From: a virus
IMG/VR virus record: IMGVR_UViG_3300037245_000525
Coordinates: 1-35,640 of that record
DNA: 35,640 bases
Strand: one strand, 5' to 3'
Shown here: positions 96 to 19,911 of the stretch, in pieces
How the letters are laid out: every line of letters starts with the position of its first letter
Position numbering within the stretch: the first letter of the stretch is position 1
Notes under the pieces: model-generated
The model's input: only the letters and a program-made list of their open reading frames with translations
What the model was told of the DNA's origin: nothing
Databases searched by the model: none
Translations under genes and position numbers: made by a program

Positions 96-515
96 CTATG
101 AAACCACCCACCTAGCCTCTACACCCCTGCTGTCAACGTGGCACCTATTGGAATACCGCCCTATCCCATACTTGCCGGGGTAGGTGCGGCACAGATATTT
201 ATACTGTTCTTTCGCGCTAATCTGTATCCACTTGCCACGGTTCCACAGCATCTTTCCGCGTCGGAATAGTTTATGATCCGCTGCCTTCCCCCGTATATGT
301 TCGCTATTTTCAGCCGCGCCGGGGATGGTGGCGTTGTGCGCTGTGCACCGGTTGGGGCCGGTGATGTCGATGCGGATACCCGTTTTGAGTGTGTGCCTGA
401 AATGGTCGCACTCGGCTTGCAGGATCGCCACCAATACAACGTCAGCCACATCCATGCCACAACCGCAGCGGCAAGCGAACTCGGAACGGGATAGATTGCG
501 TGTCAGATCGCCCAT
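96..515 (-). CDS. M15A-type peptidase, probable endolysin
   Basis: 139 aa. Zn-dependent peptidoglycan peptidase of the M15A (YcbK/DUF882-like) fold. The sequence shows the N-terminal FACRCGCG segment typical of the family, SEHIRGKAAD at residues 71-80 (zinc ligands H73 and D80) and HVD at 126-128 (third ligand H126). It should cleave cross-link peptides in the host wall at lysis. There is no signal peptide, so it would need a holin or another export route; the 42-aa membrane protein just upstream is a candidate. I chose the ATG at 515, preceded by AAAGGAAATCAA. An in-frame GTG at 611 would add 32 residues unlike the family and would overlap the upstream gene. This is the last complete gene of the late unit. 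Confidence 0.85.
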   Translation of the reverse strand: MGDLTRNLSRSEFACRCGCGMDVADVVLVAILQAECDHFRHTLKTGIRIDITGPNRCTAHNATIPGAAENSEHIRGKAADHKLFRRGKMLWNRGKWIQISAKEQYKYLCRTYPGKYGIGRYSNRCHVDSRGVEARWVVS

Positions 516-601
516 TTGATTTCCTTTCGAGGAAAAAAGCCCCGCACCCCGGCGGAGAGTTCCGGGGGCGAGGTAAGCGCGGGGGCGGTACACCCGCCTT
601 T

Positions 602-730
602 CTATTCCCACCTTTTCAGCGCGGCCTTCACAAAATGATTACCGAGTATCAACATAGCCGCACAGCTCGCAATGTGGGTAACGAGTTCTCGCCAGATTAA
701 CGGGTCTTGTAGGTGGGCTAGTTGGCACAT
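602..730 (-). CDS. 42-aa single-pass membrane protein, possible holin or lysis accessory
   Basis: A short gene with a good ribosome site (AGGAAAG, 8 bases before the ATG), starting two bases after the stop of the DUF1353 gene. The product has a polar N-terminus, one hydrophobic stretch at about residues 16-30 (LVTHIASCAAMLILG) and a basic C-terminus (KAALKRWE). It lies directly upstream of the endolysin. Position, size and a single membrane span fit a small holin or a lysis accessory protein; this is inference, as I see no family signature. The hydrophobic stretch is short, so a peripheral protein is also possible. Confidence 0.6.
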   Translation of the reverse strand: MCQLAHLQDPLIWRELVTHIASCAAMLILGNHFVKAALKRWE

Positions 731-1114: not shown

Positions 1115-3040
1115 TTACAACTCCAATCCTATGCCAAGGTTAAGCCCTGAAGTGTCAGGGGCAACGGGCACACCAGCCACCGCGCTAACAGCGGGGTCAG
1201 AGAATGTGCCGGAAATTGCGCCTTTTTCACCTTTGATCTTGTAAAAATATCTGACACCGTTTGTGCGTCCGGTGTGCGTGTATTCCAGAACATTCCCTAC
1301 AACTATCGTGGCACCTCCGACAGGATCGCCGCCGGTTAAAGATGTGCCCCACAATACTGAATAATTATCAGCATCGTCAGTTGCAGCCCACGTCAACTCA
1401 ACAGATTCATCCGCTCCGGTTGCTGTTACGCTGGTTGGTGCGGCATACGAGACAAAGAAATTTGCGCTGTCCGTCGCGCCCCAGCCGTCCGAACTAAAAC
1501 CGCGTACGTGTATTAGCCAAGCACCATATCCGATAGAAGAAGAATCTATTGAAGCATCTACGCTAAACGGACTGGAGCCACCCGGCATAACCCCCGCCGT
1601 GCCAGAACCTTCGCCGGGATCAGAGTTGCCAATGTACCACTCCCATGCAGTCGTTACGTTGTCACCATCGGTGATGGTGGCGCTCAGTTCAATGTCGTCA
1701 CCCTTCGGTATGGGCGTCGTAGCGACTGCGGTGTTAGTGACTACTGGAGCAGAGACAGCGAGGGAATATTCAGCGTACAGCCCAATCTGATGGGCGTCAA
1801 CATATGTAGTGTGAATGTCTGGTGACGCACTCCACACTTCCGTTGTGAAGTTATATGGCGTATTAAACCTGTAGGCCAAGCTAGGAGAAACGTTGTCGTA
1901 CCAAGAAAAAGCATCAGCGTCTATAGCTAAAGCAATGCAATGATCTGTGCCCGGCGATAACACCATGCCCGGCGAGCCGGAAGCAGGTATCGTTATTTTG
2001 GTTTTGCCTGTTATTGTGCCTACCGTAAAATTCCCGGTGTCACCTTCGAGATTCACGGGTTCGGGGGTTGCGTTTTCATCGTAAATGGCTCCCGCAACTT
2101 CAAGCCCTGTGCTGCCCGTATCTCCCCAATAAACCACACTGTCAAGTGTTACATCACCTACACCATCGAATGCCCCATTTCCTCTAGCTACAATAGCAGC
2201 GAAGTTCTCGGCCGTAAGAACGGGCTCAGCAGTGTATCCCAGGTCTGCCGACACCGAAATAGTCTGCGGATTCCCAATCCCCCGGCGCGTCATGTCAGCG
2301 TCAAACTGTGCATTCCTGAAAAATACTTTGTCGAAGGTGTACGGGCCTACCTGTCGGTATCTGCCATACGCCCAACCTGTTATTTCTCCGTTGAGCCAGC
2401 CGATTGCTATGGGTCGGGGCGGGTGGGCTATTTTGCCAGTGGTGTAGCGGTGGTGCCCCCCACTGTTGCGCTTGTCTAAGTGGTAAATGGCGATGGAGTA
2501 GGGTACCCAATCAGGGTAAGTCGAGCCGGGTAGGAAGTTGGCGGGGTCTTGGATGGTAAAACTGCAATCATCCACCATGCCGCTAAACGCGATGCGCTTC
2601 GGTATCCACTCGCCTTGAGGGATATTCGCTACGGGCATACCGCTGTAAATCAGGGCTACGCCGTTGCCGAGGTAATTCTCAAGCGCGTCGGGTACACGGG
2701 CACTCTGGAGGTCAACCAACTGTAGAAATGTCGCGCCATAAATATGGTTCTTTAGCGGGACTTTCCAGCCGTAGGGAGTCTCCACCATCGGGCCGTCGTA
2801 CTCCAGCCCCACAGGCTGCATGTACAGCACGTCGGTGCTACCGTCCTGCCATGGGTAGAGGGCGAGGGCTTTCGCGTCCAGGTCGAGGTAAAAACTGCCA
2901 CCGCGCTCAATGGCGTCGGCTTGCTGAGATACAGGTATGTTCTGCCACATCCCGTTAAGGCGTCGCCAATGGTCAGGCGCAGCGATAGCAGTAGAGGCCA
3001 ACAGGACAAGGGCGAGGAGGGAGAGGGCTAGTTTACGCAT
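1115..3040 (-). CDS. Large exported or virion protein with signal peptide and C-terminal FN3 domain
   Basis: 641 aa. Residues 1-21 form a textbook Sec signal peptide (MRKLALSLLALVLLAS, cleavage after AIA). The middle (about 25-430) is rich in aromatic residues, glycine and beta-prone sequence with no domain that I recognise. About 432-533 looks like an Ig/PKD-type beta domain (ELSATITDGDN, AWEWYIG). About 534-625 reads as a fibronectin type III domain (SVTATGADESVELTW, YFYKIKGE). It sits after the tail fibre in the tail module, so a spike or adhesin on the virion is the usual expectation, but the signal peptide points to the periplasm or cell surface. It could be a surface-displayed adhesin made during infection. 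Function unknown. Confidence 0.75.
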   Translation of the reverse strand: MRKLALSLLALVLLASTAIAAPDHWRRLNGMWQNIPVSQQADAIERGGSFYLDLDAKALALYPWQDGSTDVLYMQPVGLEYDGPMVETPYGWKVPLKNHIYGATFLQLVDLQSARVPDALENYLGNGVALIYSGMPVANIPQGEWIPKRIAFSGMVDDCSFTIQDPANFLPGSTYPDWVPYSIAIYHLDKRNSGGHHRYTTGKIAHPPRPIAIGWLNGEITGWAYGRYRQVGPYTFDKVFFRNAQFDADMTRRGIGNPQTISVSADLGYTAEPVLTAENFAAIVARGNGAFDGVGDVTLDSVVYWGDTGSTGLEVAGAIYDENATPEPVNLEGDTGNFTVGTITGKTKITIPASGSPGMVLSPGTDHCIALAIDADAFSWYDNVSPSLAYRFNTPYNFTTEVWSASPDIHTTYVDAHQIGLYAEYSLAVSAPVVTNTAVATTPIPKGDDIELSATITDGDNVTTAWEWYIGNSDPGEGSGTAGVMPGGSSPFSVDASIDSSSIGYGAWLIHVRGFSSDGWGATDSANFFVSYAAPTSVTATGADESVELTWAATDDADNYSVLWGTSLTGGDPVGGATIVVGNVLEYTHTGRTNGVRYFYKIKGEKGAISGTFSDPAVSAVAGVPVAPDTSGLNLGIGLEL

Positions 3041-3050
3041 TGATTACCCC

Positions 3051-3377
3051 TTAACGCTCGAAGGTGAGCCCGACCATTGCGGTGGCGTCTGTGCCTGTAT
3101 CGCACACCTTCCACGTTCTGACACGTAGCAGCGACCCCGCAGCCATAACGAATATCGGGGCGTCTGAGCAATCATAGGTGGTCTTGTCGTTGGTGGCGAT
3201 CACCCGCACGTCACCAGCACCGCCTATGTATACCGCTGTGAGCGGGGGGCTATGCTCTGTTGAGTCGCTTTTGGTAATGGCGACTGTCTTGGTGCCCGGC
3301 TGCACCCATTCCTGCTTCTCTGCGAGGGCGGCGGTTGCAAATAGAAGTATGACGATGGCGAGAAGTAGTTTTTTCAT
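3051..3377 (-). CDS. Small exported protein resembling a phage spike-base fold
   Basis: 108 aa from the ATG at 3377, which has GAAAGG seven bases upstream; an ATG at 3392 overlaps the previous stop (ATGA) but has no ribosome site. Residues 1-19 are a Sec signal peptide (MKKLLLAIVILLFATAALA). The mature part has the pattern SDSTE..PPLTAVYIGGAGDVRVI, then AAGSLLRVRTWKV and DTGTDATAMVGL. This resembles the short spike-base proteins of gene transfer agents and phages (RCAP_Rcc01079 type). Two cysteines (C70 and C92) could form a disulfide, which fits export. The fold assignment is from remembered pattern, not a search. Confidence 0.65.
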   Translation of the reverse strand: MKKLLLAIVILLFATAALAEKQEWVQPGTKTVAITKSDSTEHSPPLTAVYIGGAGDVRVIATNDKTTYDCSDAPIFVMAAGSLLRVRTWKVCDTGTDATAMVGLTFER

Positions 3378-3388
3378 CTGTGTGCCTT

Positions 3389-3652
3389 TCATGGACCAGT
3401 ATTGTAAACATGCTGTGCAATGCTTTTCTCAAGAATGCAGATTCTACTTGTCAGGTGCCCACGGTCTGCTTCGCCGGTTGCGAGGCGTTCACCGTGTTGG
3501 GCTTGGATGGTTGCATAAGCCTTTAAGTCACCCCGTAAACCATCGTAGGAGCCGGACGCAACGGAGGCGGCTATTGTGAGCATCGTCATGGATAGAACCA
3601 CTGCGATACCCACCGCCCACGTTATTGCCCTTGTTACGCTTATGTCTCCCAT
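3389..3652 (-). CDS. Small membrane protein with coiled-coil tail, possible spanin or holin-like
   Basis: 87 aa. One hydrophobic helix at about residues 9-32 (ITWAVGIAVVLSMTMLTIAAS) follows a short N-terminus. A polar, helix-prone C-terminal half (about 38-80) is likely a coiled coil. This N-in, C-out layout is that of inner-membrane spanins or other lysis accessory proteins, but I see no specific family motif. The ATG follows GGGGGT. It lies between the PagL-like barrel and the small exported protein, overlapping the possible upstream start of the latter by ATGA. Role inferred from layout only. Confidence 0.65.
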   Translation of the reverse strand: MGDISVTRAITWAVGIAVVLSMTMLTIAASVASGSYDGLRGDLKAYATIQAQHGERLATGEADRGHLTSRICILEKSIAQHVYNTGP

Positions 3653-3660
3653 ACTACCCC

Positions 3661-4092
3661 CTAAAAAGTTACGCCTACGGTGAAAAAGTCAACGCCACGA
3701 TTGGCCTGTTTCGCGCTTTCATCCCCGTGCTGGAAAAAGTTAGCGCCGTTGCTAAAGTGCATCCACCTGAAGACGAAGCGGTCATAGGTCACGCCAGCGG
3801 TTAGGGTGAATTGTAAGTGATTGTCAAGCGCGTGGTGTTCGGTGATAGCCCCAACCCCCACACCAGCGAACAGCGGCCCGTAATGGCCTTCCTTGAGGAC
3901 GTGGGCGTAGTGGGTAGTGCCGAACCAGCCCCCGCCCACTCGCACCGGGCCAGCGTCGGTTAGGAAGCCTGTAATCTCTTCGCCTGTGAACTCGGACATG
4001 CCCCGTATGGAGTGGCCGAGGTGTACTTCGCTTGCTGAATAGCAAGGCGCAGAAAAGGCAAAGAGGCATAGGATTATGACTAGGCTGCGCAT
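3661..4092 (-). CDS. PagL-like outer-membrane beta-barrel (putative lipid A 3-O-deacylase)
   Basis: 143 aa. The signal peptide spans residues 1-19 (SLVIILCLFAFSAPCYS). The mature protein alternates polar and hydrophobic residues and ends in FFTVGVTF, a C-terminal aromatic residue with hydrophobics at -2, -4 and -6, as in the BAM beta-signal. HFSN at 112-115 matches the HxSN active-site motif of PagL (His and Ser of the His-Ser-Glu triad). NRGVDF at 131-136 aligns with the N-x-G-x-E segment, so D135 would replace the catalytic Glu. Length fits the PagL/acyloxyacyl hydrolase family. Start: the ATG at 4092 overlaps the tail-fibre stop (TAATG) and has AAGGAG; the ATG at 4122 lacks one. If active it would remove an acyl chain from lipid A in the outer membrane. 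Confidence 0.65.
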   Translation of the reverse strand: MRSLVIILCLFAFSAPCYSASEVHLGHSIRGMSEFTGEEITGFLTDAGPVRVGGGWFGTTHYAHVLKEGHYGPLFAGVGVGAITEHHALDNHLQFTLTAGVTYDRFVFRWMHFSNGANFFQHGDESAKQANRGVDFFTVGVTF

Positions 4093-5219
4093 TAGTTGAC
4101 ACTCCTTGACAGCTCGTACCAAACGCTACTTATCAGGATAAAAATAGCGGTATCGCCCACGCTTGTGTTTGTCCAATCAGCGCCACCAGCAAGCACCAGG
4201 GTTGCGCCATCAACTAGGTCAACCTTGCCCGTTGTAGAAAGAAAAAGCAGCCGTATTACTTGGCCTTCTATCCCATCATTAAAAGTAGTGATGGCATAAC
4301 TTGCCCCATTAGGCACAGTGAAGGCAGAGGCACCCACTACAGATGGGGTGGTATCGCCGTCTGTGATTGCAGCAACCTCAACCACCTCCACCAGTGCCCC
4401 ACCGTTTGCCGCGTTGCTATGGTCGTGGGTGGCATTGGTATAGTTTGCTATCGTGGGGATCGTGAGGGTATTGCCACCCCCAGCCGCGTCGGCGTGGTCG
4501 TGGGTGGAGTTCGCAAAACTGGTAACAGCCGGGGCGGCTAATGCTACCGTCCCATCGTCGTAGCCGTCGAGCGTTTCGGTTACGGTTCGCACTGTAGCGG
4601 TATGCGCTACGAGGTCGGAGCCCTTGCCCACGTCGGAGCTAATCAGGTCTGCGAGTCCGTCCCAGCTATTACCGTCTACTGCTAGGTCAAAGTTGGCGAG
4701 GTTGCCGCTGCCATCGTAGCCTATGACGTTACCCGCCGCTGGTGCCACGAGGAAACCCGGCGCGCCCTGCACGGAGTTCTGATAGCGTAAGGCGTTCACG
4801 TTGGCATCTTCTATTTGCTTCACCAGCGATACCGCCCGGTCGAAATCGTTGTTGACCACATCGGGGCGAAAGTCACCGTTGAACTGGTAATCTACTGTCC
4901 TACTGGTTGGGATTGCTGAAACGATGGTCACCGCGTCGTCAAGGGTTGCGCCGCTGTCCAGGGTGATCGAGCCGCCCGCATCTTCCCCTGCACCCGCTAC
5001 CGTGTAGGCCGTGGTGATGTCGGTAGAGTCGTTGGGGGTTGCGCCCGAAGCGGTGATGTAGACGCTCAAATCGGTATCGGCGTAGATTTTAAACGTGTAG
5101 TTGAATACCGTCTGCCCAGCGGTGGCGGTGTATTCGTTGCGCCCGGCGTTGGTGCTGACGGTGGCGAATGCGGTTGCCGCCATGCAAAGGGCGATAAGGG
5201 CTAGAAGTAGTTTTCTCAT
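4092..5219 (-). CDS. Tail fibre protein with T7 gp17-like N-terminal domain and a Sec signal peptide
   Basis: 375 aa. Residues 20-145 match the virion-anchoring N-terminal domain of T7-type fibres (NEYTATAGQTVFNYTFKIY, DLSVYI, GGSITLDSGA, DYQFNGDFRPDVVNNDFDRA). This is followed by a short shaft with two THDH motifs (239-242 and 264-267), like the metal-binding HxH motifs of other fibre shafts, and a beta-rich tip (about 275-375). Unusually, the anchoring domain is preceded by a complete signal peptide (MRKLLLALIALCMAATAFA). The start overlaps the ejection-protein stop by TAATG. The virion role follows from the family; why it should be exported is unknown. Confidence 0.85.
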   Translation of the reverse strand: MRKLLLALIALCMAATAFATVSTNAGRNEYTATAGQTVFNYTFKIYADTDLSVYITASGATPNDSTDITTAYTVAGAGEDAGGSITLDSGATLDDAVTIVSAIPTSRTVDYQFNGDFRPDVVNNDFDRAVSLVKQIEDANVNALRYQNSVQGAPGFLVAPAAGNVIGYDGSGNLANFDLAVDGNSWDGLADLISSDVGKGSDLVAHTATVRTVTETLDGYDDGTVALAAPAVTSFANSTHDHADAAGGGNTLTIPTIANYTNATHDHSNAANGGALVEVVEVAAITDGDTTPSVVGASAFTVPNGASYAITTFNDGIEGQVIRLLFLSTTGKVDLVDGATLVLAGGADWTNTSVGDTAIFILISSVWYELSRSVN

Positions 5220-8200
5220 TATTGGGCTCCCAATTTAATGGCCTTGTTGCGTTTGATGTCCTGAATCTCCATGAATAGCCGGGGGTCTTCTTCCATCATA
5301 GCACCCTGCGCGGCATTTCTGTAGGCTTCAAAGACTGCCTTGATAAGTGTGGACTTCCCACCCTCTTGGCCGGCTGTCGCGTTCTGGTACATGCTCGTGC
5401 TGAAAAGCTCGCGTAGTTTGGTCTTCAAGGGCATCTTGACGAAGCGGTTATTTTCGCCTGCGTAGAAGCGAATGTACTTGTCATACTGGCGGGTGTCGAG
5501 TTCTACCCGGCCAATCATGTTGCGCGGCATTCTCAGAAGGGTCTGCTGCTTGACTATCTCATCGGCTATCGGGTCTTTCTTGTCGGTGCTGGTGTAGATC
5601 GGGCTCATTATGTCCGGGCCTAATCCACCACTCAACACAATCGGCTCCCCGAAGATGTTGCGCCGTGGGGGCAACCCCTCAGAGTAGCCGGGGATGCGCG
5701 AGCGTAGTTTTTCAAGTATGCCCTGCGTAGCCTCCAGGCCCGGCGACATAAGACGCTCTGCCTGTGCTACGCCAGCCGGTACAGCGGAACCAGCCAGCCG
5801 TTCGACCCACCGTTGCGCGCGTTTGTTGCGCTTGTCGGGATCGGGTGACACGCTGCTCATTACATCGAAGAACTCCGACACGCCGCGCATGTAGGTCTTA
5901 GAGGTGACATTCTGCGCGGTAGCAACTACGGCGGCGGTGGTCACGTCCAAGGCGTCGGCTTCGGTGGTCTGCCCTACTATCTCGGCTATGTCGGCGCTCA
6001 TGCCTATCAAGGCGCCAATCGGGTCAAGGCGGCTGTAAGAGTAATACGTATCGCCCACCTTGATCGAATACGGTTGCCAGCCTGTAGTTCTCAACAGATT
6101 ACGCATGGCGGGGTTCTGTGGGCCGCCCCCGGTGAGTTGACCTGATAAGGTGTAGTCAGCCGATGCCGCCATTACCATTGAGCCGGTCGCTATCTTGGCG
6201 AGTGCCAAGTCTCTACGCGCACCACCAGCCGCAACCTCTGCCCGTACATTCTTAGCGAGGGGCGCAAGGATGGTGCGCTCTCCTGCGTACTTCATAATGT
6301 TGACGGGTGTACGCACGAAGGGCACTATCACGCGCGCGCCCGGTATCTTCTTAACGAGGTCTTGCAGGGCTTTCCCGCCCTCTTCAAGCGGCTTGGTGAA
6401 CGTCTGGTAACGGGCGGCGTCTACAGAGGCAAGATGAAGATTTTCCGGGGGGTTCTCGACGATCTCGGTTATCCGTTTGGCGAGGTCGTCACCTTGCAAA
6501 CCTTCGCCGCTCGCCTGCCTGAACGCCTGCGAGTGTAGCTCCATGCGGTAACCAACAGACTTGAAAAACTCATCCGAAGCGGTCAAAAGCCGTCCGGGGA
6601 TGCGTACCGTTTCGCCCATGAAGTCAGCGAAGCGCCCAGCCGTGCCACTAAGCCCAAGGTTCTCCCCGGTGAGTGCTTTGTGCCCCTGCGTCTCTATCTT
6701 GGTTACTACGTCGGCGGGCTCCCCGGTCTTCAGTGCTTTCCACGATAGGCGCATCCCGTCCTTCGCGCCCTGCACCATGCCAAATAGAGAGGCGGTGGCT
6801 TCACCTTCGGGGATGCTCTGCACGTCCAGCCCTGCGCCAATCAGCGACGCCACCTTGCGCTCTGCCACCGACCATGCAGCGGTGATGGAGTTGCCGAGTA
6901 CGTTGACCATATGGGTGGCGGGGCTGCTGAGTAGCCCGTTAATCCACGCCTCAAATACTATATCTTTAGTCTTCGCCCCCGCCGACTGTTTGATGAAGGT
7001 GTTTATCTGGTGCGGGTGTTCGAGCTGTAAGAGCTTATCAGCAAGGTCGCGGGACGTTTTGACACCACCACCAGCTTCAAGGGCTTCTTTGATTGCGCGG
7101 GCTTGGGCTTCCTCGCTCTTGGCGGCGATGCGGAACGATTGGAGCGCCCGGCCTGCTTCGGCGGTGGCTCCTGATACCTGTAGTTGGATCGCGTGGTGGT
7201 TCGCCATTGCTTTTCGGAACTTGATGAGGTCAACATCCGCGCCCGCAGAAGCAGCCTTAGCAAGCTCCACAAGATTTTCACCAGAGGCCACAAGAATTTT
7301 ACGAGCAGCAAGAGCTTGTTCGGCATTGAATGCTTCCCCTTTCCTGCGCTTTAAGAGGGTGTCAACGGTCATCCCTAGATCGGCGGCTAGCTTCTCCGTC
7401 TCCTCGTTGGTGATAACTTCGCGGCGGGCCTCGTTGATGTCTTTGGAGAACTTCTCGCCTACGCGCTCAATCAATTCCTTTACATCGTCGGCTGTTTCTA
7501 GTTTCGCCGTATTGATGTTGAGTGCGCGTTCCTCTCCTGCCTTCTTAGAACCCACTTTAAAAACAGGCTCATCAGTTTCGTCAAAAGGTTTAAATTCCGC
7601 GTCCGGCTCAATTTTGGCCTCCCCTTCTACTTTGGGTGCTTCCCCCGTGGCTGCAAGGCGCTCAATGGCCTCTTGCTCGGCGTCTGCTGCCCCCTGAGCG
7701 AGCTTTCTCGCCCTGTTGGCCCTGATACCCTTGGCGGCGAAGAAAAGCCCGTCAGAGAGGACGCCGAGCCCTAGCCCTTCGATGGCATTCTTAAAGCGGC
7801 CTTCGGCTTCGGTGTCGTCGGGTTGCGCGGCTAGGAACTCAGATACCGGGTTTTGTAGTTCCGGCTGCGCTTCTATCAAGTTGGATAGGCGGTCTTCGTG
7901 GGGGTCGAATACGGCGGCGTCCGCTACAGCGCCGGCCACCATGCTGGTGATGAAGGGTGCGCCCTTAGTCGCTACGCCTACAGCCTTGGATGCTGGCAGG
8001 AATCCGGTTAAGAACTGCGCCACTCCCCGGATTAAGCCACCTGTAACGCTTGCCGCCTCTTTTGTGCTGGGGATAAAGCTAGCCACGCCCATTTGAGGAT
8101 CGAACAAGGGGGCGAGTGCGGGTGCGCCTAGCGAGGTGAAAAGCGACTTGACCGAAGTGCTGATTTCCTCAACGGCGTCGGCAATCCCACCCGTTACCTG

Positions 8201-8389
8201 CGCGGGTATTTCCAGAATGCCCCGGCCTATATCCTTGGCTATCTCAACCGGTGCGAAGTCAAACGGCTCGGCTCCATGGTCGGCTTCCTGCGTAGGGGGC
8301 TTTTGTGCCAAGTCCAACCGCTGCGCCGGGGTCAGTTCCGTGCTCTGCCTAGTCTTCAGGAATTGGCCTGTGCTATCGTCTAAGGGCAT
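5219..8389 (-). CDS. Large internal virion (DNA ejection) protein
   Basis: 1056 aa, the largest gene. It is placed as T7 gp15/gp16 are: after the tail nozzle and two smaller internal proteins, before the fibre. The sequence is mostly helical with an Ala/Glu/Lys-rich stretch (about 220-460). Two blocks are ones I associate with podovirus internal proteins: WINGLLSSPATHMVNVLGNS (about 490) and RIPGRLLTASDEFFKS (about 590). Gly/Ala-rich amphipathic segments at the N-terminus (SMVAGAVADAA and others) could insert into membrane. I do not see a transglycosylase motif. Expected role: stored in the capsid and ejected to help DNA cross the envelope. Confidence 0.8.
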   Translation of the reverse strand: MPLDDSTGQFLKTRQSTELTPAQRLDLAQKPPTQEADHGAEPFDFAPVEIAKDIGRGILEIPAQVTGGIADAVEEISTSVKSLFTSLGAPALAPLFDPQMGVASFIPSTKEAASVTGGLIRGVAQFLTGFLPASKAVGVATKGAPFITSMVAGAVADAAVFDPHEDRLSNLIEAQPELQNPVSEFLAAQPDDTEAEGRFKNAIEGLGLGVLSDGLFFAAKGIRANRARKLAQGAADAEQEAIERLAATGEAPKVEGEAKIEPDAEFKPFDETDEPVFKVGSKKAGEERALNINTAKLETADDVKELIERVGEKFSKDINEARREVITNEETEKLAADLGMTVDTLLKRRKGEAFNAEQALAARKILVASGENLVELAKAASAGADVDLIKFRKAMANHHAIQLQVSGATAEAGRALQSFRIAAKSEEAQARAIKEALEAGGGVKTSRDLADKLLQLEHPHQINTFIKQSAGAKTKDIVFEAWINGLLSSPATHMVNVLGNSITAAWSVAERKVASLIGAGLDVQSIPEGEATASLFGMVQGAKDGMRLSWKALKTGEPADVVTKIETQGHKALTGENLGLSGTAGRFADFMGETVRIPGRLLTASDEFFKSVGYRMELHSQAFRQASGEGLQGDDLAKRITEIVENPPENLHLASVDAARYQTFTKPLEEGGKALQDLVKKIPGARVIVPFVRTPVNIMKYAGERTILAPLAKNVRAEVAAGGARRDLALAKIATGSMVMAASADYTLSGQLTGGGPQNPAMRNLLRTTGWQPYSIKVGDTYYSYSRLDPIGALIGMSADIAEIVGQTTEADALDVTTAAVVATAQNVTSKTYMRGVSEFFDVMSSVSPDPDKRNKRAQRWVERLAGSAVPAGVAQAERLMSPGLEATQGILEKLRSRIPGYSEGLPPRRNIFGEPIVLSGGLGPDIMSPIYTSTDKKDPIADEIVKQQTLLRMPRNMIGRVELDTRQYDKYIRFYAGENNRFVKMPLKTKLRELFSTSMYQNATAGQEGGKSTLIKAVFEAYRNAAQGAMMEEDPRLFMEIQDIKRNKAIKLGAQ

Positions 8390-10004
8390 CTGCCGCAGCC
8401 TTTCTTGCCTTGGTGTACTCTTGGTTAATCGCTATCATCTGTTGCAGCCGTTCGATTTTGCGGAATTCAAAATTATATGTATCATCGTCTATCTGGTTTG
8501 ACAACTTCGCTTCGTTGAGTCTTTCCAGAGATAGGTCAAGATTCTCCTTGCTGCCGAACATTGGATTGGGTGCTTGGTTCACATCATCCAGCCCGATTAG
8601 TAGGTCGGCTACTGCCCACGGGTTTTCCCCAGCGCGCACAGATTCAAAGAGTTCTCTTTCGGCGTCGGCTAGGCGGCTCTCTGCTTCGGTGTCCAGCGCG
8701 CCAAAAGGGCCAGTTACGCGCATCTTACGCCGCACGAATGATTCGGCCTGCTTGTAGTTCGGGTCGTTGGTGAAATGCTTGGAGTTTACCCGCGCTTCTT
8801 TGGCCTGTAGCTGCCTGTCAAGAATTTGCAGCCCCTGTGTTTCGGTCAGGTTGCTGCCGACATTCGCTATCACGGTGCCCGTCACGTCCCGGCCTTCCCT
8901 GATATCTTGATGGAGTCCCAGCACTAAGCTCCAATCCGTCGAGCCCTTACCCCGTGAATTGAGGGTTGTCAACAGTTTACTACCTTGCTCAACGGTGATG
9001 GCCTTTGACTTCGTAGCTTTGATAACATCTTGTGCGGTGGCGGTGCCCGAAGCTATCCCGGTGAACAGTTCGGCGTAGCTGTTTTCCTGCGCGGTTTTTA
9101 GCGCGGCATCTTCGCCATCTTCAATCTTGTTGCTGAGAGATATCGACTCGTTAAGCTCGGCAATCATCCCGCCTACTACTTCATCGTGTTCGTCAGTGGT
9201 GAAACCGCCCGGTATCTTGTCGCGTGTCTTCTCTATTACCTCGATAGCCTCGTTGATTTTACCCTCGCGAATAAGAGCGTTGACACCACCTAAGAGGGTT
9301 TCCTTAGTCGAATTAAAATCAGCGTCACGGCGCTTTACCTCGGCTTCGGGCACGGTCATTAAACCGCTCTCAACCATCGTGTCAATGATCGTGTTGAACT
9401 CTAGGAGCTTTTCACCGGAGCCTATCAGGTCGCCATCACGCGCTGCTGCCTGGGATTCGTCGGCGGCATTGTTGGCGGCAAGTTGCATCTGCGCCGTGGC
9501 CTCCACCCGGTCGGCGGCTCTGTTGGCCCTGTGTACCCTTGTACGGGCTGCGGTGATCTTGCCATCAAGGAATACCGACACGTCTTGCCGCGCGCTGGGG
9601 TCTACTCCGCTCAATATCCCCTTGCTCAAACCCCTTACGGAGTCATTAAAGTTTAGGAGGTCGGCGGGGTTTTCCGTCTCAAGGCGGTTGACGCTTTCGG
9701 TTATGTCGTTACTCAGTGAGGCGAGGTAAGCACCACGCAAGGCTTTGTTGTGGGCGGTGGCTTCGATGCTGCCGAAGAAGCCTACCTTGTCCAGTTTGGG
9801 TGCTTGCGTAATACCGTCCTTCGTCACCAGCTCAGTACCCGCCGCCCTGGTCGTCCCACGTTCTAACGCTTGCTGCCCCGCTGCCTGAGTCGCCAAGGTC
9901 TTGAAGTCTTCAAGCTGGTCGGCAAGAGATAGCGCGGCCTGTGCGGCCCCTGTGCGGGTATCCACTGGCTGTAGATTAATTGTTTCCCTAAAGCGTTCTG
10001 CCAT
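8373..10004 (-). CDS. Internal virion protein, helical
   Basis: 543 aa, overlapping the start of the 1056-aa protein by 17 bases. Rich in Ala, Glu, Lys and Asp with long helical stretches (for example residues 150-200 and 400-460), no cysteine and no catalytic motif that I recognise. The N-terminus (MAERFRETINLQPVDTRTG) resembles the start of other podovirus internal core proteins. By order (after gp12-like and gp14-like genes, before the largest ejection protein) it is the counterpart of T7 gp15. Structural role inferred from position and composition. Confidence 0.75.
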   Translation of the reverse strand: MAERFRETINLQPVDTRTGAAQAALSLADQLEDFKTLATQAAGQQALERGTTRAAGTELVTKDGITQAPKLDKVGFFGSIEATAHNKALRGAYLASLSNDITESVNRLETENPADLLNFNDSVRGLSKGILSGVDPSARQDVSVFLDGKITAARTRVHRANRAADRVEATAQMQLAANNAADESQAAARDGDLIGSGEKLLEFNTIIDTMVESGLMTVPEAEVKRRDADFNSTKETLLGGVNALIREGKINEAIEVIEKTRDKIPGGFTTDEHDEVVGGMIAELNESISLSNKIEDGEDAALKTAQENSYAELFTGIASGTATAQDVIKATKSKAITVEQGSKLLTTLNSRGKGSTDWSLVLGLHQDIREGRDVTGTVIANVGSNLTETQGLQILDRQLQAKEARVNSKHFTNDPNYKQAESFVRRKMRVTGPFGALDTEAESRLADAERELFESVRAGENPWAVADLLIGLDDVNQAPNPMFGSKENLDLSLERLNEAKLSNQIDDDTYNFEFRKIERLQQMIAINQEYTKARKAAADALRR

Positions 10005-10012
10005 GCTTGCCC

Positions 10013-10420
10013 CTATGCAGTCGCGGCTAGGCTGGCGAAATCACCTACCAACCCGGTAAACGCGCTTGTCTTTGCTGCCTGTTTCGCCACTTGCCCTCGT
10101 GCCCTTAGTGTCATCGCTTCCAGTTCCGATGTGAAGATATCGCGCTCGGTCGCCGTCTCTTCAGCGGCTATGTCGGCTTCAAGTATGGATAACGGCGAAC
10201 CCTCAAAGGCTGATATCCCCCTAGCCCCAGCCGAAGCTGTTTGGCTCGCCATCGCGCGCGCTAGAACCTCTTTCCTGTCGGCTTCGCGCTGCGTTGCGCC
10301 AAGCTCTACCTGCCCAGCGGTGAACTCGGCTTCCTGCGCGGCGATCTCCCCCGCTTTTCTTTTCTGCCCGGCTTGCACAAGCGATAACCCGGCGCTGATT
10401 GCTAACGGTGCGAATGCCAT
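10013..10420 (-). CDS. Internal virion protein, T7 gp14-like
   Basis: 135 aa. It begins with a hydrophobic, glycine-containing N-terminus (MAFAPLAISAGLSLVQAG), continues as one long Ala/Glu/Gln-rich helix (about 20-110) and ends hydrophobic (FTGLVGDFASLAATA). This layout is typical of the smallest ejection protein of T7-like phages, which forms the outer-membrane part of the ejection channel. The gene sits directly after the nozzle gene with a TAATG overlap. Assignment rests on size, layout and order. Confidence 0.75.
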   Translation of the reverse strand: MAFAPLAISAGLSLVQAGQKRKAGEIAAQEAEFTAGQVELGATQREADRKEVLARAMASQTASAGARGISAFEGSPLSILEADIAAEETATERDIFTSELEAMTLRARGQVAKQAAKTSAFTGLVGDFASLAATA

Positions 10421-12438
10421 TATTGACTGACCTCCATGCCTATGTTCAGAATGGTGAACGGCATCGGTGTGTCTTGTGTTATATCAAATTGCGCCTCTAA
10501 ACTCCAACCGGATAGGAATATGCGCCTAACCCCCGTTTGTGGGGAGGGTGCGTCAAACTGATCCTGCCCAATCGTCTTGTCGGCTATGCGCTGCCCGTCT
10601 ACGATTATACCGTTAGACTCGGATATCTGCAAAGAGACGCGGGTGATCTTCTTTTTCCGCGAAGCATTCGGGCCGTTCTTCAAGTTGACGTTTAAGGGCA
10701 TCGGGCGAATAAGCGGCACAAAGGCCAACCCCGCCTCTATCGTGTCGGCTTCCCTGTTAATCGTAATCTCGCCACCGGATACCACGAAAGCGCCCATAAA
10801 CGAGTCGTCAGCCTTCACCCATACAGTTTCGCCTTCAAGGTGAGAAAGTCCCGTCAGCGTGTCGCTGGCTAGCCCTGCGCCTATTGTGGCGGCGTCGGTG
10901 TTGAGCAAAGTATTCTCACGCTCGATGTAGTAGACCGTCGAGCCGCCAATGACTCTTTCCACCAGCAAGTACACCTGATCGGACACCACGGCCACCGACT
11001 TGATATTGCCGCCAGTCTCCCACCGGGTGAACCCGGCCACGTCTTCAGAGGCGAGGGTATTAAATACGGTCAGGTCGCCATCCTCGTTTAGGATGTAGAC
11101 ATAATTCGCGTCAGTCTCTTCCGTTCCACGACTAACCACCAGCTCCACAGGAGTGCGAATAAGATGGGGAGAGAGAAAAGAAATGCTGCGGGTTTGATTC
11201 GCCTGAAAATCGTTGAGAAAGACAAATTGCACCACCGCCTTTCCTGTGCGCTGCGCAAAGAGTGTCACACCTTCCAGCGTCACGGGGCGTATGCGCTTTG
11301 AGCCTAGATTGCTCTGAGGGCTGACGGCTATATTCTCCGGGGTTATCGGTGACTGCGGTACGTAGAACTCCCCGCCGCTTGTGAATATCTGCAAAGCTCT
11401 GTTCGAGAATATCCCCGTTACTGCATTTACCTGATCGGTGTCAAGCACTGCGGTGATTGCTTCGTCGTCTAGGGCTTTTCTATCCTTGAAGTTGAAGAAG
11501 TCATTGACACGCGAGCCCCATATAGTTGCGGGTCGCGATCCGGAGCCGCCGAACCACAAGCGCCCCTCGTGGAAGGTACACGTTACAGGCCACCCACGGG
11601 TGGCGCTCCATGAGTCCTCGGCTTGGCTCACACCGTCCTGCGTGGTCGCTGTAGCTGCGGCGAATGACGCACTTGTGGTAGAAATGGCGGTCACCACCAT
11701 CTCATCCCAATCTTTAGCCGAGTCGTTGGCGAAGGTGACGGTAACCACGGAACCAACGAGCGCGGCGGTAATCCCTGAGTTGCCCGTGTTCAGCAGGGCT
11801 TGCAGTTCGTCGCGTATGTCGTTAGCTACGTCAGCACCCCAAACTATATCGGCAGTCTGGAGTCCTTCCAGTGATATGCGGAACCTGTCGCCCTCTGTCT
11901 CGTTGCTGAATGTAAGCGTCTGAATCTCTGACGTGGGCGTAGGGCTGGAAGCATCGCTAAAGTTGAACTGTGGCACGTTGGTGAGCCCCAGGTTGCCGAT
12001 GCTCCACGCCGTGTCAGAGGTGCGGGTGATCTTCTGTGTCTCCACTGCCGGGTGGGTGATTATCACCGTGTCGGCAGATTGGATGTAATCGAAGTCGCGA
12101 ATCTGCGCGGTTGTCCATGGGGTCACCAGATAAGGATTGCCGCTACCGTTGATGTTGGTTTGCAGTACACCGTCTTTGAATATCTGCATACGCAGGTCAG
12201 TGAAGACTAGCAAATACGTTTGCTCGACGTTGAATGAGAAGTTCTCAAGGCGTCCATTTCCTAGCGCGCTGGCGAGGTATTCCTGCCCTGGTCGTTTCTT
12301 CAGGCCACCCTGCGGGATAGATAGGACGTTTAGCGCCTGCTCCACCCCGGCGTAGTAAGCAGCAAGGTCAATGCGTCCCACCAGCGTGGGCACAAGCTCC
12401 CCCCGGTTCATCGAGGTTTGTATTTGCCAGAAGCCCAT
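10420..12438 (-). CDS. Tail tubular protein B (nozzle), T7 gp12-like
   Basis: 672 aa. The N-terminal block MNRGELVPTLVGRIDLAAYY, followed by ALNVLSIPQGGLKKRPGQEY, is characteristic of podovirus nozzle proteins. The rest is beta-rich, fitting the propeller fold of gp12 (repeats around residues 70-330). HEGRLWFGGSGSRPATIWGS (about 288-307) is another conserved block. It forms the distal tail tube that joins the adaptor ring and the fibres. It follows the gp11-like adaptor directly and is about the usual length for the family. Confidence 0.9.
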   Translation of the reverse strand: MGFWQIQTSMNRGELVPTLVGRIDLAAYYAGVEQALNVLSIPQGGLKKRPGQEYLASALGNGRLENFSFNVEQTYLLVFTDLRMQIFKDGVLQTNINGSGNPYLVTPWTTAQIRDFDYIQSADTVIITHPAVETQKITRTSDTAWSIGNLGLTNVPQFNFSDASSPTPTSEIQTLTFSNETEGDRFRISLEGLQTADIVWGADVANDIRDELQALLNTGNSGITAALVGSVVTVTFANDSAKDWDEMVVTAISTTSASFAAATATTQDGVSQAEDSWSATRGWPVTCTFHEGRLWFGGSGSRPATIWGSRVNDFFNFKDRKALDDEAITAVLDTDQVNAVTGIFSNRALQIFTSGGEFYVPQSPITPENIAVSPQSNLGSKRIRPVTLEGVTLFAQRTGKAVVQFVFLNDFQANQTRSISFLSPHLIRTPVELVVSRGTEETDANYVYILNEDGDLTVFNTLASEDVAGFTRWETGGNIKSVAVVSDQVYLLVERVIGGSTVYYIERENTLLNTDAATIGAGLASDTLTGLSHLEGETVWVKADDSFMGAFVVSGGEITINREADTIEAGLAFVPLIRPMPLNVNLKNGPNASRKKKITRVSLQISESNGIIVDGQRIADKTIGQDQFDAPSPQTGVRRIFLSGWSLEAQFDITQDTPMPFTILNIGMEVSQ

Positions 12439-13022
12439 TAGCTAAAGAATCCCGTGCTGGAACCACCAAAGCGCACGTCAACGAAAGGGCTATCGATGAT
12501 CGGGATGGGGGGCTCCTGCTGACTGTCTATGCCACGCGCCTTTGCAGCCTGTCGCTCGTGCTTGCCTTCATAGTATTTTGCCTTGCTCTCGCTCTCGGTG
12601 ACCAACATTGCGAAATCTGACGCCAGGAGGTATTCAAGCCCGGTCACGAAATGGGGCGGTAGTTTGGACTCCGCCACCTTAAAGCCGTACATCGCCAAGA
12701 GTTCGGGCTGGTTGGAATACAAGATGTCACCGACGATAGTGTAATTAGAATGCGGCTTGATCGCCCACAACCTTATCAAGTCCGTTGGCATCTGATACCC
12801 ATACTTGAAGTTGATAAACGGATCAGGCTCGGCAGTCAAGCGGGATAGCCGTTGAAGTTTTAGGGCGAATGACCACGGGTGCGAGGCGATGAAGCTACGG
12901 TATTTCACAGGGTACAAGTTCGCCGCTGCCTGTGCGCCTGCGCCCGGATCATCAAACGACGATATCGGGTCGTCGCCCACCAGAATTAAAGCGTTGCTCG
13001 CGATGTCTATGTCTGATGCCAT
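12438..13022 (-). CDS. Tail tubular protein A (head-tail adaptor), T7 gp11-like
   Basis: 194 aa. The pattern IDIASNALILVGDDPISSF, then YPVKYRSFIASHPWSFA, then LPPHFVTGLEYLLASDFA is that of podovirus gp11-like adaptor proteins, which form the 12-mer ring between portal and nozzle. I chose the ATG at 13022, with GAGG five to six bases upstream; an upstream in-frame codon at 13043 would run back into the previous gene. It ends by overlapping the nozzle gene by one base. Confidence 0.9.
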   Translation of the reverse strand: MASDIDIASNALILVGDDPISSFDDPGAGAQAAANLYPVKYRSFIASHPWSFALKLQRLSRLTAEPDPFINFKYGYQMPTDLIRLWAIKPHSNYTIVGDILYSNQPELLAMYGFKVAESKLPPHFVTGLEYLLASDFAMLVTESESKAKYYEGKHERQAAKARGIDSQQEPPIPIIDSPFVDVRFGGSSTGFFS

Positions 13023-13029
13023 GTTACCC

Positions 13030-14373
13030 TCAATTATCCACAAGTACGATGTCGAAGCCAGCTGAGAAAGCCGCTGCCGTGGTGCCTGATGCTGATACAG
13101 AAACCTTCATTTCTATATCTGTTTTTTCTTGGAACACTTCCGGCTCTTGATACTGGTGTTGGTGGCTGCTAGTCCCGTCATCGGAAATTGACGATATGTG
13201 TTTGGTTCTGAATACGCCGCCAAACTCACGAGCCACTAGAGATAGCGGATAATTAGAGCTTCTGTTCGCCCCCGAAGTAGCACCGTACCAGTCACGCATA
13301 TATCCCGTTTTGCCAGCAGGGATTGTGTAAACGGCCATAAGGGTTTGCTGGTGTTCCGGCTGGACGACGGCGCGAATATCTGCGTTGGTATTCGGCACCC
13401 CACCGGTCAGCGTTCCGTTAACGTAGACGAAAACATGCCCTGCAAATGGCGTCGAGTTTGAGTTGAAAACGCGGTACACTCTCAACAGTGCAGTGCCTAG
13501 CGCTACCCGTGTCTGGCCGTTGAGCGTTGCCGTCTGCATCACCGGTATGTAGTTAGCATCCAGGCCAACTATATTGACTTCTGCCGTGTCGGCGCCGTCA
13601 CTTGAGCTAATGCTATCAATATCTGCGGAGGTCGAATAGACATACTCCATCAGCTCCCATGCGGTGCCGTCTTCCGCGCCATCCCAAACGGTGACCTCTC
13701 CATCGGTGGCGTCGAAGTCCGGGGCGTTGCCGAACTTGTGCACAAAGGTTGTGCCGACGACTTCACCCTTCGCAATGGCGAGCCCGTTCTCTGCGTCGGT
13801 GGTCTTGAGGTTGCCGGTGTCGCTTGCCCCGATGTTGACAAAGCCATCACCCGCGATCTGCGCAGATAGCACAGACTTTACAAGCTCGGCGTCGTCGTCA
13901 TCGGTGATGCTGTCTTGTACTCGGTGGCTGGATGGCTTCGCGTTGACCGACTTGAGGATAACTTGCAGCCGAAAGTCGGTCTGTGCAATAGCCCCGTTTG
14001 TGTAGACCACCCGCATGTACCTAGCGTATGGGTTGATGGAGTAGTTTTTGCCCGTATCAGCTGGGACGGTGTAAACGTCATCATGATCCCAATTCGTACC
14101 GTCGGAGCTTTGCTCTATCGCTAGCCCATCGGTGGCGCTGGCTACGTCTGAATATACATTTATAAATATGATTGCGTAATTTGTTATATCTTCGGCGGTG
14201 CCCGTATAAACCCCGTCTGTACCCAGAATTGCAATAGAGGAGTTGTCCGTTGATATCGTGCCCTCTATCGTCTCAATGGTGTTGGAGCCGCGCTCGTTGG
14301 TGATGCCACGGGCGGCATGTGCTGGTGTGATAATTAGAAAAGTGAGGAGTATAAAAAGAAGATTGCGAATCAT
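13030..14373 (-). CDS. Signal-peptide-bearing virion or exported protein in the head-tail module
   Basis: 447 aa from the ATG at 14373, which overlaps the previous stop by ATGA and follows a GGGGG ribosome site. Residues 1-20 (MIRNLLFILLTFLIITPAHA) are a strong Sec signal peptide. The mature N-terminal part (about 30-150) reads like phage beta-sandwich structural proteins (GLAIEQSSDGTNWDHDD, YARYMRVVYTNGAI, TDFRLQVIL). The C-terminal half is also beta-rich (TIPAGKTGYMRDWYGA). There are no cysteines in the mature part. The position between decoration-type proteins and the gp11-like adaptor suggests a capsid-surface or tail protein, which makes the signal peptide odd. Confidence 0.75.
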   Translation of the reverse strand: MIRNLLFILLTFLIITPAHAARGITNERGSNTIETIEGTISTDNSSIAILGTDGVYTGTAEDITNYAIIFINVYSDVASATDGLAIEQSSDGTNWDHDDVYTVPADTGKNYSINPYARYMRVVYTNGAIAQTDFRLQVILKSVNAKPSSHRVQDSITDDDDAELVKSVLSAQIAGDGFVNIGASDTGNLKTTDAENGLAIAKGEVVGTTFVHKFGNAPDFDATDGEVTVWDGAEDGTAWELMEYVYSTSADIDSISSSDGADTAEVNIVGLDANYIPVMQTATLNGQTRVALGTALLRVYRVFNSNSTPFAGHVFVYVNGTLTGGVPNTNADIRAVVQPEHQQTLMAVYTIPAGKTGYMRDWYGATSGANRSSNYPLSLVAREFGGVFRTKHISSISDDGTSSHQHQYQEPEVFQEKTDIEMKVSVSASGTTAAAFSAGFDIVLVDN

Positions 14374-14721: not shown

Positions 14722-15273
14722 TTAGCTCAGAGCTACAGAGCCCACGTTCACGAGGACTTCGCCCAACCCCGCCGAGTCGAACCATACGGCGAGAAATTCA
14801 AGCGGGGCGTTGAGGGTTGCCACAGTGTTACCGGTGGCGTTGAAGGTGCCAGCGGTTAAGGTCACGGTGTGCGCGGCGGTGCCCGATGCGGAGGTGTCCT
14901 TGATGATGAACAGCCCTTGGTGCGCCTTGGAGTCGGCAATGGTGGTAACTACCGCCACGGTGGCGTGGTTGAGTTCGATGGACTGAACGCCGGGGGTGAT
15001 AGCTGCGGAGGCGGTCAACTCCTGGCTGGTCTGGAGCTGGGTAGTTACAACACCAGCCGAGGAAATAGCCGCTACGGTCATCGCGTAGACCAGAGCCCCG
15101 CCATTGCTAGCGACGATGTTGTCGCCAGCGGTGAGGTTCATAAATACGGTGTCAAAGTACCCTGAAGCCTTGACTACGGCTACGGTGTCCGTGGTCTTGT
15201 AGACGAAGGTGCGCGGTGCGTTGCTATTCGCCTGTGCGGAGAGAGGGAGAAAACTTGCAAGAGTAAAGGCCAT
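14722..15273 (-). CDS. Capsid decoration-like protein
   Basis: 183 aa. The N-terminal pattern (SANSNAPRTFVYKTTDT-type start, then VAVVKASGYFDTVFMNLTAGD) is the one found in small head decoration or stabilising proteins encoded next to capsid genes in many phages (aSGYF, then a hydrophobic strand, then GD). The sequence is beta-rich with a C-terminal half of alternating Val/Thr. It starts 12 bases after the major capsid gene and ends before a terminator-like hairpin, so it should be made in amounts close to the capsid protein. Confidence 0.7.
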   Translation of the reverse strand: MAFTLASFLPLSAQANSNAPRTFVYKTTDTVAVVKASGYFDTVFMNLTAGDNIVASNGGALVYAMTVAAISSAGVVTTQLQTSQELTASAAITPGVQSIELNHATVAVVTTIADSKAHQGLFIIKDTSASGTAAHTVTLTAGTFNATGNTVATLNAPLEFLAVWFDSAGLGEVLVNVGSVALS

Positions 15274-17461: not shown

Positions 17462-18986
17462 CTCCTCCTAGTTCGGTTTCCGCTGCCTGCTTGACGGCTT
17501 CCGCTAATTTCTGGCGCTCCTCGTCTGTCCTCACCAGTTCGGCGGGGATGCCTAGCTTCTTCTGCGTCCAGCGCGGTATCTCCTCGATCTTGACCGACCC
17601 GGCAACCACCGCTTCGGGTAATAGCGATATGGTGTCAAACCATACCCGGAAATTCTGGTAGTCCTCCAGGTCTTCAGCCTTTGCCAGCGGTGATGTCTGC
17701 TTAAGTGTGACCGCCCTACCATCCACCTTGATCGGTGCGACTTCGCCCAGCTCGCCTAGGATATCCACACCAGCGGCGGCTAGTGGCTCAATTAGTTCGG
17801 ACTTCAACCGGCCAAGGGATGCGCCGCGCTTCTCCAGCATCTCCTGCTTACGTAGCATCTGCTCAGTGGCAGACCGTACAGCGTCTTGTATTTCCCCGAA
17901 GGGCTCGGCAAACAGGGCTTTCTTGATATTGTTTTGTAACTTTTCAAGGATGACCTCGCCAACACCGATGTTACCCGATGGGGTTATGGCGACAAGTGAG
18001 GGGTTCTGGCTATTGTTGCTGCTTACGGTCATAACCGTGCCGGGGTTTATTCGCGCCGTGTGTGGGTTGAATACCCCATCATCCACGCCCGTGTAAATAC
18101 CTGCCATCTGGATGGCGGCATTCTCAAGCATGAACTGCATGACCTTGTTCGCCGTGCGGATGTCGGGAAGCACATTGATTATCGGGCCACGTCCGAAGGT
18201 TTCACCGGGTACAACATGCCACCTGAAGACGATCAGCCGCTTGGTGTTGAATGACTGCGTAAACATGAGCGTCTTGCTGGGCTCATGGATGACTAACTGG
18301 TGATACTTGCCGTCCTGAGGGTTGAACAGGAAGCCGTTGAGTATCTTGATCTTCGCGTGTGGCTGGCGCTTAACCTTGCCTGCTATGGCGTCCGGCAAGT
18401 CCGCTTGCGGCCACGTTGTCTTGATATCCCTTGCGATGACCTCCTGCAAGCGCCACACGTTCTCTATGGGGCCGCTAGAGGGCTTCTCCGGGTACAACTC
18501 GGCTAAGGGCGCGTTGGTGAACCTGAACGCTTTGCCCTGCTTGAAGTCACCTTGCTCAATCATTATCGCCCCGGTGCCGATGCCAAGGTCGGTCAAGGCT
18601 GGGGTGATCTCTGTTGAGAAGTTGGAATGGTTGAGGTGCTGGAAGAACTTGTTTGTTACATCCTCCAGGGCCTTGTTGGTTCTATCCTGCTCATCTTTCG
18701 GGATATCCCCGCCAGCAATGTAATTAAAGAAGTTCTGCCACGATGGCACCACCGCGCCTTCAATGGTCGATGCAAATTGCTCCAACCCAAACACAGCAGT
18801 TGAGTCGAATATGTGGCGGTTCTTGCTCTGCCCCGGTGAGTGCTGGGTGAAGGTCTGGCGCTGTGGTGCGGAGAAGTCAAACGCCTCCTGGTGGAGTGAC
18901 CTGAATAGCTCCCAACTCTCTCGCGCCTTCTTGAAGCGGCGTAGGAGATCTTCAATGCTGCCGAATCCTTTGGGCACGCTAGCCAT
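17433..18986 (-). CDS. Portal protein (podovirus head-to-tail connector)
   Basis: 517 aa. Podovirus-type connector (T7 gp8 family): an N-terminal helical part with AFDFSAPQRQTF and HIFDSTAVFGLEQFASTIEG (about 35-80), a central FRWHVVPGETFGRGPIINVL-type block (about 250-270) where family members have GRSP or GRGP, and a helical wing with GEIQDAVRSATEQMLRKQE (about 350-370). The length is usual for the family. It forms the dodecameric ring for DNA passage and joins the gp11-like adaptor. It overlaps the gp7.3-like gene upstream by one base. Confidence 0.9.
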   Translation of the reverse strand: MASVPKGFGSIEDLLRRFKKARESWELFRSLHQEAFDFSAPQRQTFTQHSPGQSKNRHIFDSTAVFGLEQFASTIEGAVVPSWQNFFNYIAGGDIPKDEQDRTNKALEDVTNKFFQHLNHSNFSTEITPALTDLGIGTGAIMIEQGDFKQGKAFRFTNAPLAELYPEKPSSGPIENVWRLQEVIARDIKTTWPQADLPDAIAGKVKRQPHAKIKILNGFLFNPQDGKYHQLVIHEPSKTLMFTQSFNTKRLIVFRWHVVPGETFGRGPIINVLPDIRTANKVMQFMLENAAIQMAGIYTGVDDGVFNPHTARINPGTVMTVSSNNSQNPSLVAITPSGNIGVGEVILEKLQNNIKKALFAEPFGEIQDAVRSATEQMLRKQEMLEKRGASLGRLKSELIEPLAAAGVDILGELGEVAPIKVDGRAVTLKQTSPLAKAEDLEDYQNFRVWFDTISLLPEAVVAGSVKIEEIPRWTQKKLGIPAELVRTDEERQKLAEAVKQAAETELGGGGDIETGGA

Positions 18987-19381
18987 TACACGCCCCCTAG
19001 CGTCTGCGCTCTTGTCCCTGTGGGTGACGTTGCGATAAGGAGTGAGCGTCCACCCCTGCCGGGTAACGCGGATGCTCTACGCTCGGCTATGTCGCTCTCT
19101 GCGGTGGCGAGTCGTGCGGCTTCGGCTTGCTTGGCACGGAGGAGCTTTTCTTTTTTAACAGCCGCCTCCTTCTTTAACTTCGCCTCCAGCACAGGATCGT
19201 CGCCAACCTTGGCGCGGCCTTCACTCACTAGCGGCCCCTTGCGAGCAAACCTCTGCGCGAAACCGCTGCCGGTGGCCGACTTTACAACCTTGCCGCCTGG
19301 GTCAAGCATTCCCGCGATGTCTTCGCCACCCGAACTAGGGTCTATTAATGATTTGAATGTTTTCTCTGCGCTACCGCCCAT
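18986..19381 (-). CDS. Small virion assembly protein, T7 gp7.3-like layout
   Basis: 131 aa. Disordered and charged with a Lys/Ala/Glu-rich helix (about 65-100), then a C-terminal GRGGRSLLIATSPTGTRAQT motif. That short C-terminal motif (G-R-x-S-L-L-x-T-S-x-x-G) occurs in small proteins next to the portal in many podoviruses. T7 gp7.3, a tail assembly protein, has a similar composition and ending. It is placed just before the portal. Role inferred. Confidence 0.65.
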   Translation of the reverse strand: MGGSAEKTFKSLIDPSSGGEDIAGMLDPGGKVVKSATGSGFAQRFARKGPLVSEGRAKVGDDPVLEAKLKKEAAVKKEKLLRAKQAEAARLATAESDIAERRASALPGRGGRSLLIATSPTGTRAQTLGGV

Positions 19382-19902: not shown

Positions 19903-19911
19903 AGTCTCTCC

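Follow-up and report, generated by a model that had tools for sequence, protein, structure and literature searches.

Predicted Sec signal peptides on the tail fibre and other late proteins of a T7-type podovirus

In the textbook view, the particles of tailed phages are finished inside the cytoplasm, and we know of no report of a tailed phage that exports its tail parts. The locus described here raises the question why a series of late proteins of such a phage, the tail fibre among them, begins with what look like Sec signal peptides (SPs). The window, i.e. the whole stretch of 35,640 bases that was analysed, is a virus record and represents a podovirus of T7 architecture. Its head and packaging genes comprise the small terminase subunit, a terminase-like gene, portal, a scaffold/protease-like gene and capsid, and its tail and lysis genes comprise tail tubular protein A, nozzle, three internal virion proteins, fibre and lysis genes. 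No near DNA relative of its first 20 kb was found in the phage records searched. A sequence-only reading had pointed out signals on four consecutive late proteins and suggested a cell-envelope programme, be it the masking or altering of receptors, help with release or a periplasmic assembly step.

Signal peptides on five late proteins

The genes that bear on this question are the following.

96..611, minus strand: M15-family endolysin (PF08291, E 3e-8), no signal
1115..3040, minus strand: probable spike fibre, 641 aa, with signal (2981-3040; MRKLALSLLALVLLASTAIA before APDH), Fn3-like region and docking peptide (1118-1144)
3051..3377, minus strand: spike base, RCAP_Rcc01079 family, with signal (3321-3377; MKKLLLAIVILLFATAALA before EKQE)
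3389..3652, minus strand: 87-aa gene, one N-terminal membrane helix followed by a soluble part, no cleavable signal
3661..4092, minus strand: putative outer-membrane beta-barrel of about 124 aa plus signal (MRSLVIILCLFAFSAPCYS before ASEV), HFSN...NRGVD motif, terminal Phe
4092..5219, minus strand: T7-type tail fibre, 375 aa, with signal of 19 residues (5163-5219; MRKLLLALIALCMAATAFA before TVST), N-domain from T20 and short C-terminal domain
5219..10420, minus strand: three internal virion proteins (1056, 543 and 135 aa), no signals
10420..12438, minus strand: tail nozzle (tubular protein B; phrog_376, E 4e-135; Pfam Phage_nozzle), no signal in the window
12438..13043, minus strand: tail tubular protein A (phrog_394, E 3e-36), no signal
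13030..14373, minus strand: fifth protein with predicted export, 447 aa, signal at 14314-14373 (MIRNLLFILLTFLIITPAHA before ARGI), located between the decorator/100-aa gene and tail tubular protein A

Signals were called by a simple rule of our own making together with inspection and, above all, by comparison between homologues; the rule is known to have missed one obvious case, the nozzle at L154 (see below). Predicted Sec signals were found on the T7-type fibre, the barrel, the spike base, the spike fibre and the 13030-14373 protein, and both the rule and the eye recognize in all five a basic n-region, a short hydrophobic core and small residues at -3/-1. For the four genes singled out earlier, the positions as well as the predicted cleavage after AFA (4092-5219), CYS (3661-4092), ALA (3051-3377) and AIA (1115-3040) were confirmed, and all four are minus-strand reading frames with a Shine-Dalgarno-like (SD) motif and n-h-c signal architecture. 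They are, however, not strictly consecutive, as the 87-aa gene lies between barrel and spike base, and their number rises to five, as a scan of all starts in the window yielded a further SP protein elsewhere, at 13030-14373. With about 9-13 residues the hydrophobic cores are too short for transmembrane anchors. Under the same rule, 5 of about 22 late genes in the window carry a signal versus 2 of 477 genes around the fibres of relatives (Fisher p about 2e-6, an indicative value only, as the genes are related). An SD motif was present at 16 of the 20 start sites examined, and an internal start with SD in one gene only. There is good support for the proposed export of late proteins, with the fibre among them, and we regard it as highly probable.

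Note that one of the two background hits (L011:9499-10389) is an SP protein of 296 aa, encoded downstream of a T7-type fibre that is distantly related. A duplicated signal cassette was considered, but found no support: between fibre, spike base and spike fibre, the SP-encoding DNA is only slightly more alike than synonymous-codon nulls. Among the genes without signal, the internal virion proteins matched phrog_6651 (E 2e-61) and phrog_418, the 543-aa member being named from its position and relatives only. The 87-aa product has no family match in Pfam, PHROG or NCBIfam and appears spanin- or holin-like from its sequence. As the endolysin is devoid of an SP, lysis needs a holin to open the inner membrane. 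In a 183-aa protein (14722-15273), the first 80 or so residues match a separate 89-aa post-capsid gene of relatives (54%), which suggests a decorator extended at its C-terminal end.

In the fibre, the signal sits exactly at the initiator Met of its relatives. The PHROG tail-fibre profiles, which cover the tail-attaching N-terminal domain of T7-type fibres, begin at residue 20, equivalent to profile position 2 (phrog_13893, E 8e-20; phrog_1640, E 2e-19), and where the window reads TAFA followed by TVST, relatives read M followed by TIT. We inspected the N-termini of related fibres at about 80 loci from IMG/VR and GTDB, the window fibre being up to 65% identical to its IMG/VR relatives. Those complete at the N-terminus have a start codon directly before, or a few residues from, the equivalent residue, and none among the about 80 carries an SP. 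The profile match from residue 20 and the relatives' start position thus place the SP where the Met was, and after the predicted cleavage the fibre would start with Thr, like a fibre after Met removal. Four loci (L017, L019, L020 and L088) aligned from query residues 1-2, but were discarded as SP-bearing fibres because their alignments enter upstream sequence. A cytoplasmic isoform was likewise dismissed: the fibre start is preceded by the SD motif GGAG, and no internal start is supported by one. In the closest relatives of the window (internal virion protein 68% and 60% identical) the fibre is devoid of an SP, and the signal was thus either gained recently in the window lineage or lost in theirs.

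The spike base passes the curated cut-off of NCBIfam NF048002 (28 bits) with 48.7 bits (E 7e-13). Five homologues are SP-less, with starts close to the predicted mature N-terminus of the window protein; a scan of close relatives with the window protein returned nothing. In RcGTA, the spike base forms a pentamer on the capsid vertices with its N-termini bound to the capsid, and the head fibre docks into this pentamer by the peptide IALGLGLGL (PMC7296036). The 641-aa protein encoded next to the base ends in GLNLGIGLEL, including the docking-type peptide LNLGIGLEL (1118-1144), and none of 2088 other ORFs shows this C-terminal pattern. Two isolate phages have a docking-type peptide (MIGLGLDLSL and MYIGLGISL) at the start of the gene that follows the spike base. 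No phage record matches the 641-aa protein, but as it adjoins the base gene and ends in a docking-type peptide, its sequence marks it as a probable spike fibre whose dock has moved to the C-terminus.

The barrel has no match in Pfam, PHROG or NCBIfam; it stays below the Pfam cut-off for PF09411, with nothing even at E 10, and neither the scan of close relatives nor the phage records yielded a match. Against a profile of 21 PF09411 proteins, hhalign nevertheless aligned its C-terminal half (74-141; 92%, E 6e-7), and the C-terminal HxSN...NxG motif of PagL is present as HFSN...NRGVD, with a loop between the motifs that is longer than in the 21 PF09411 loci showing HxSN. By hmmsearch it reached 13.2 bits with the PagL profile, second among 2000 shuffles, which is only moderate support for kinship with PagL. 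The single-sequence AlphaFold model has a pLDDT of 33. The terminal Phe is the usual end of outer-membrane barrels. Judged from its sequence, the protein is probably a PagL-like lipid A deacylase, and we call it PagL-like rather than PagL. A single PagL query found no relatives in 50,697 phage records. The possibility of a lipoprotein (SAPC) was dropped, as the Pro before the Cys is unfit for a lipobox.

The fifth protein belongs to phrog_8198 (E 1e-41), and its AlphaFold model (mean pLDDT 69) contains two beta-sandwich regions that are predicted with confidence and loosely linked. Its best match in the PDB is the exported protein XepA of PBSX (E 2e-8; 10% identity, global TM-scores 0.2-0.3), and carbohydrate-binding modules were matched as well. 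We describe it as an adhesin-like protein of two sandwiches. Two of its 12 homologues, L127 and L125, have SPs of their own, with a longer c-region in L125. Note that the contig of L127 and L143/L144 (G097) encodes, besides this homologue, three more proteins with SPs; its second half contains numerous similar ORFs rich in Ala and Ser.

A separate lineage with signals on the nozzle

The homologue L125 led to contig UViG_3300028610_000533 (G096), where SPs are found on the nozzle (MKRVILFLILIANAFG before YYGPVTSFNSGQ), on the T7-type fibre (MKKLMLIVLLFATPVFA before TVPAGE) and on several fibre-like proteins. Further members came from a nozzle scan, resulting in a separate podovirus lineage of eight contigs.

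Members of the SP lineage (IMG/VR podovirus contigs): L142:9215-10710, L152:3367-4839, L154-L158, L160

Besides nozzle and fibre, this lineage has several more SP genes within about 13 kb. The signal is present in all eight nozzles (seven by rule, L154 by eye), 7/7 fibres, 4/4 members of a 300-aa family, 3/3 of a 677-aa family and two of the three small proteins of 106-140 aa, and is absent from tubular protein A (0/7), two families of internal proteins (0/5 each) and an acetyltransferase (0/4), in sum 0/21; members of one lineage are non-independent observations. In the tree the SP nozzles form one clade (support 100/97), apart from the nozzle of the window. Identity is 30% among the SPs and 56% among the mature chains: the signals have drifted more and yet were kept, so that their function is retained, as expected of signals under functional selection. 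From its residue 1 onwards, the window fibre aligns with SP-bearing fibres of this second lineage (E 7e-6 and 7e-5). The nozzle of epsilon15 starts without an SP.

A further set is found in G098, the closest relative of the window, with four consecutive SP proteins (573, 178, 339 and 157 aa) between terminase and portal (17644-21402; L145 17644-20000 and L146 1-1402) and a fibre without SP. The sets in the window, the second lineage and G098 point to at least two separate episodes, and probably three. At L182:4384-8213, a nozzle reading is divided by in-frame stops into two ORFs, each of which has an SP-like start; an intron, an insertion, recoding or an assembly error are candidate causes.

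Proposed two-compartment assembly and its alternatives

T7-like particles are assembled along a path from portal and capsid through packaging, tubular protein A and nozzle to the fibre. The exported parts lie at the end of this path, from the nozzle outward in the second lineage and from fibre and spikes outward in the window, and in neither does an SP occur on a recognised protein that is required before packaging; in the window, those required during packaging lack one as well. For the window phage we consider assembly in two compartments the most likely mechanism, with a confidence slightly better than even. Sec signals would mark those virion parts that join the particle once its DNA is packaged. 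DNA-filled heads would form in the cytoplasm, while the exported adhesins, and in the second lineage the nozzle too, would be processed and held in the periplasm. Once the holin opens the inner membrane, heads and exported parts would share one space, and the particles could gain their fibres and spikes. Such export would keep receptor-binding parts apart from the cytoplasm and permit oxidative folding, and the PagL-like barrel of the same block would probably alter the LPS at the same time. That some tailed phages in general make heads in the cytoplasm and tail adhesins (plus the nozzle, in one lineage) in the periplasm, to be joined only at lysis, is to us an evenly balanced proposition, and we are equally divided on whether the set of exported parts marks the meeting point of the head and tail-part pathways. 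Among the functions proposed earlier, the periplasmic assembly step gains most, favoured by the exact fusion of SPs to the start of an otherwise normal fibre and spike base and by the conserved SPs on the second-lineage nozzle, which is implausible as a receptor mask; helping release found no specific support. A difficulty is that fibres diluted after lysis must still find heads. The SP-less fibre of the closest relatives shows that this fibre type does not require export, and exported copies could have another role.

Such a role might be a decoy or envelope programme, in which exported fibres, spikes and barrel block or alter the producer's receptors against other phages or sister virions, while virions are independent of the exported copies. 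The PagL-like, outer-membrane character of the barrel is in line with this, and so is lambda, whose outer-membrane barrel Lom has its gene between those of tail spike and fibre (PMC12309495). Both spike and fibre are adhesins, and spare adhesins would perhaps be explained. However, only one fibre gene was recognised in the window and it keeps the full virion-attachment N-domain, so that virions would be left fibreless; moreover, an exported nozzle is unexplained, and periplasmic adhesins have no evident path to the outer face. We thus consider this reading unlikely, though by no means negligible, and the earlier claim of altered receptors is likely to hold for the 3661-4092 barrel, with its PagL-like C-terminal half and HxSN motif, but for that member only.

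Heads and fibres need not meet after lysis if the N-termini, all hydrophobic and basic at the start, are cleaved late or not at all and keep their proteins tethered to the inner membrane, the tails being finished there from the side of the cytoplasm. The short cores and small -3/-1 residues are nevertheless those of typical cleaved signals, the fibre domain follows directly after the cleavage site, and spike-base N-termini bind the capsid in RcGTA (PMC7296036), all of which renders tethering improbable. Export for folding only, with an ordinary assembly order, would apply if the adhesins depend on disulphides or on some other modification in the periplasm, or do harm in the cytoplasm. Two cysteines each in the mature spike base and spike fibre fit this idea, but the mature fibre has none, nozzle cysteines vary across the SP lineage and these fibres commonly have homologues without an SP, so that we give it little credence. 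Finally, the signals were called by a simple rule, and some start sites are without an SD motif, as might be expected if the N-termini were chance hydrophobic stretches or wrong start codons; in view of SPs retained in 8/8 nozzles and 7/7 fibres despite sequence drift, and a background of only 2/477 genes, we hold this to be very improbable indeed.

Relation to known systems

In the literature, with few subscription journals and preprints covered, no report was found of SP-bearing tail fibres or nozzles or of periplasmic tail assembly. A conserved use of Sec signals that is specific to certain families, among them fibres and even nozzles, would imply that the particles of some phages are finished outside the cytoplasm, with a bearing on escape from cytoplasmic defences and on self-adsorption, and the order of tail assembly would become readable from sequence alone. 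For surveys of phage genomes, a searchable signature is an SP that immediately precedes the N-domain of a fibre or nozzle.

With T7-type podoviruses (gp11/gp12/gp17; e.g. the Pelagibacter phages HTVC010P and Skadi) the window shares the fibre N-domain, nozzle, tubular protein A, internal virion proteins and a T7-like gene order. Their fibres, however, begin at the Met before the domain, where the window has an SP fused, and in the second lineage the nozzle has one too. The filamentous phages also have virion proteins with Sec signals, the coat proteins pIII and pVIII, with cleavage established there and predicted here, but they are extruded through the membrane without lysis, whereas the window represents a tailed phage of the lytic type that encodes terminase, portal and an endolysin. 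XepA of PBSX, a phage protein described as exported, has two beta-sandwich domains like the 447-aa protein; at 10% identity and low global TM-scores it is a best fold match only. The barrel shares with Lom, which lambda exports, its place as a small outer-membrane barrel gene beside a fibre gene and with PagL the HxSN...NxG motif, but it is strongly diverged, below every family threshold. The pair of spike base and putative spike fibre resembles RcGTA Rcc01079/Rcc01080 in the base family and in that the neighbouring fibre gene encodes a Leu/Ile-Gly docking peptide, with the differences that both window proteins have SPs and that the dock is N-terminal in RcGTA, but C-terminal in the window.
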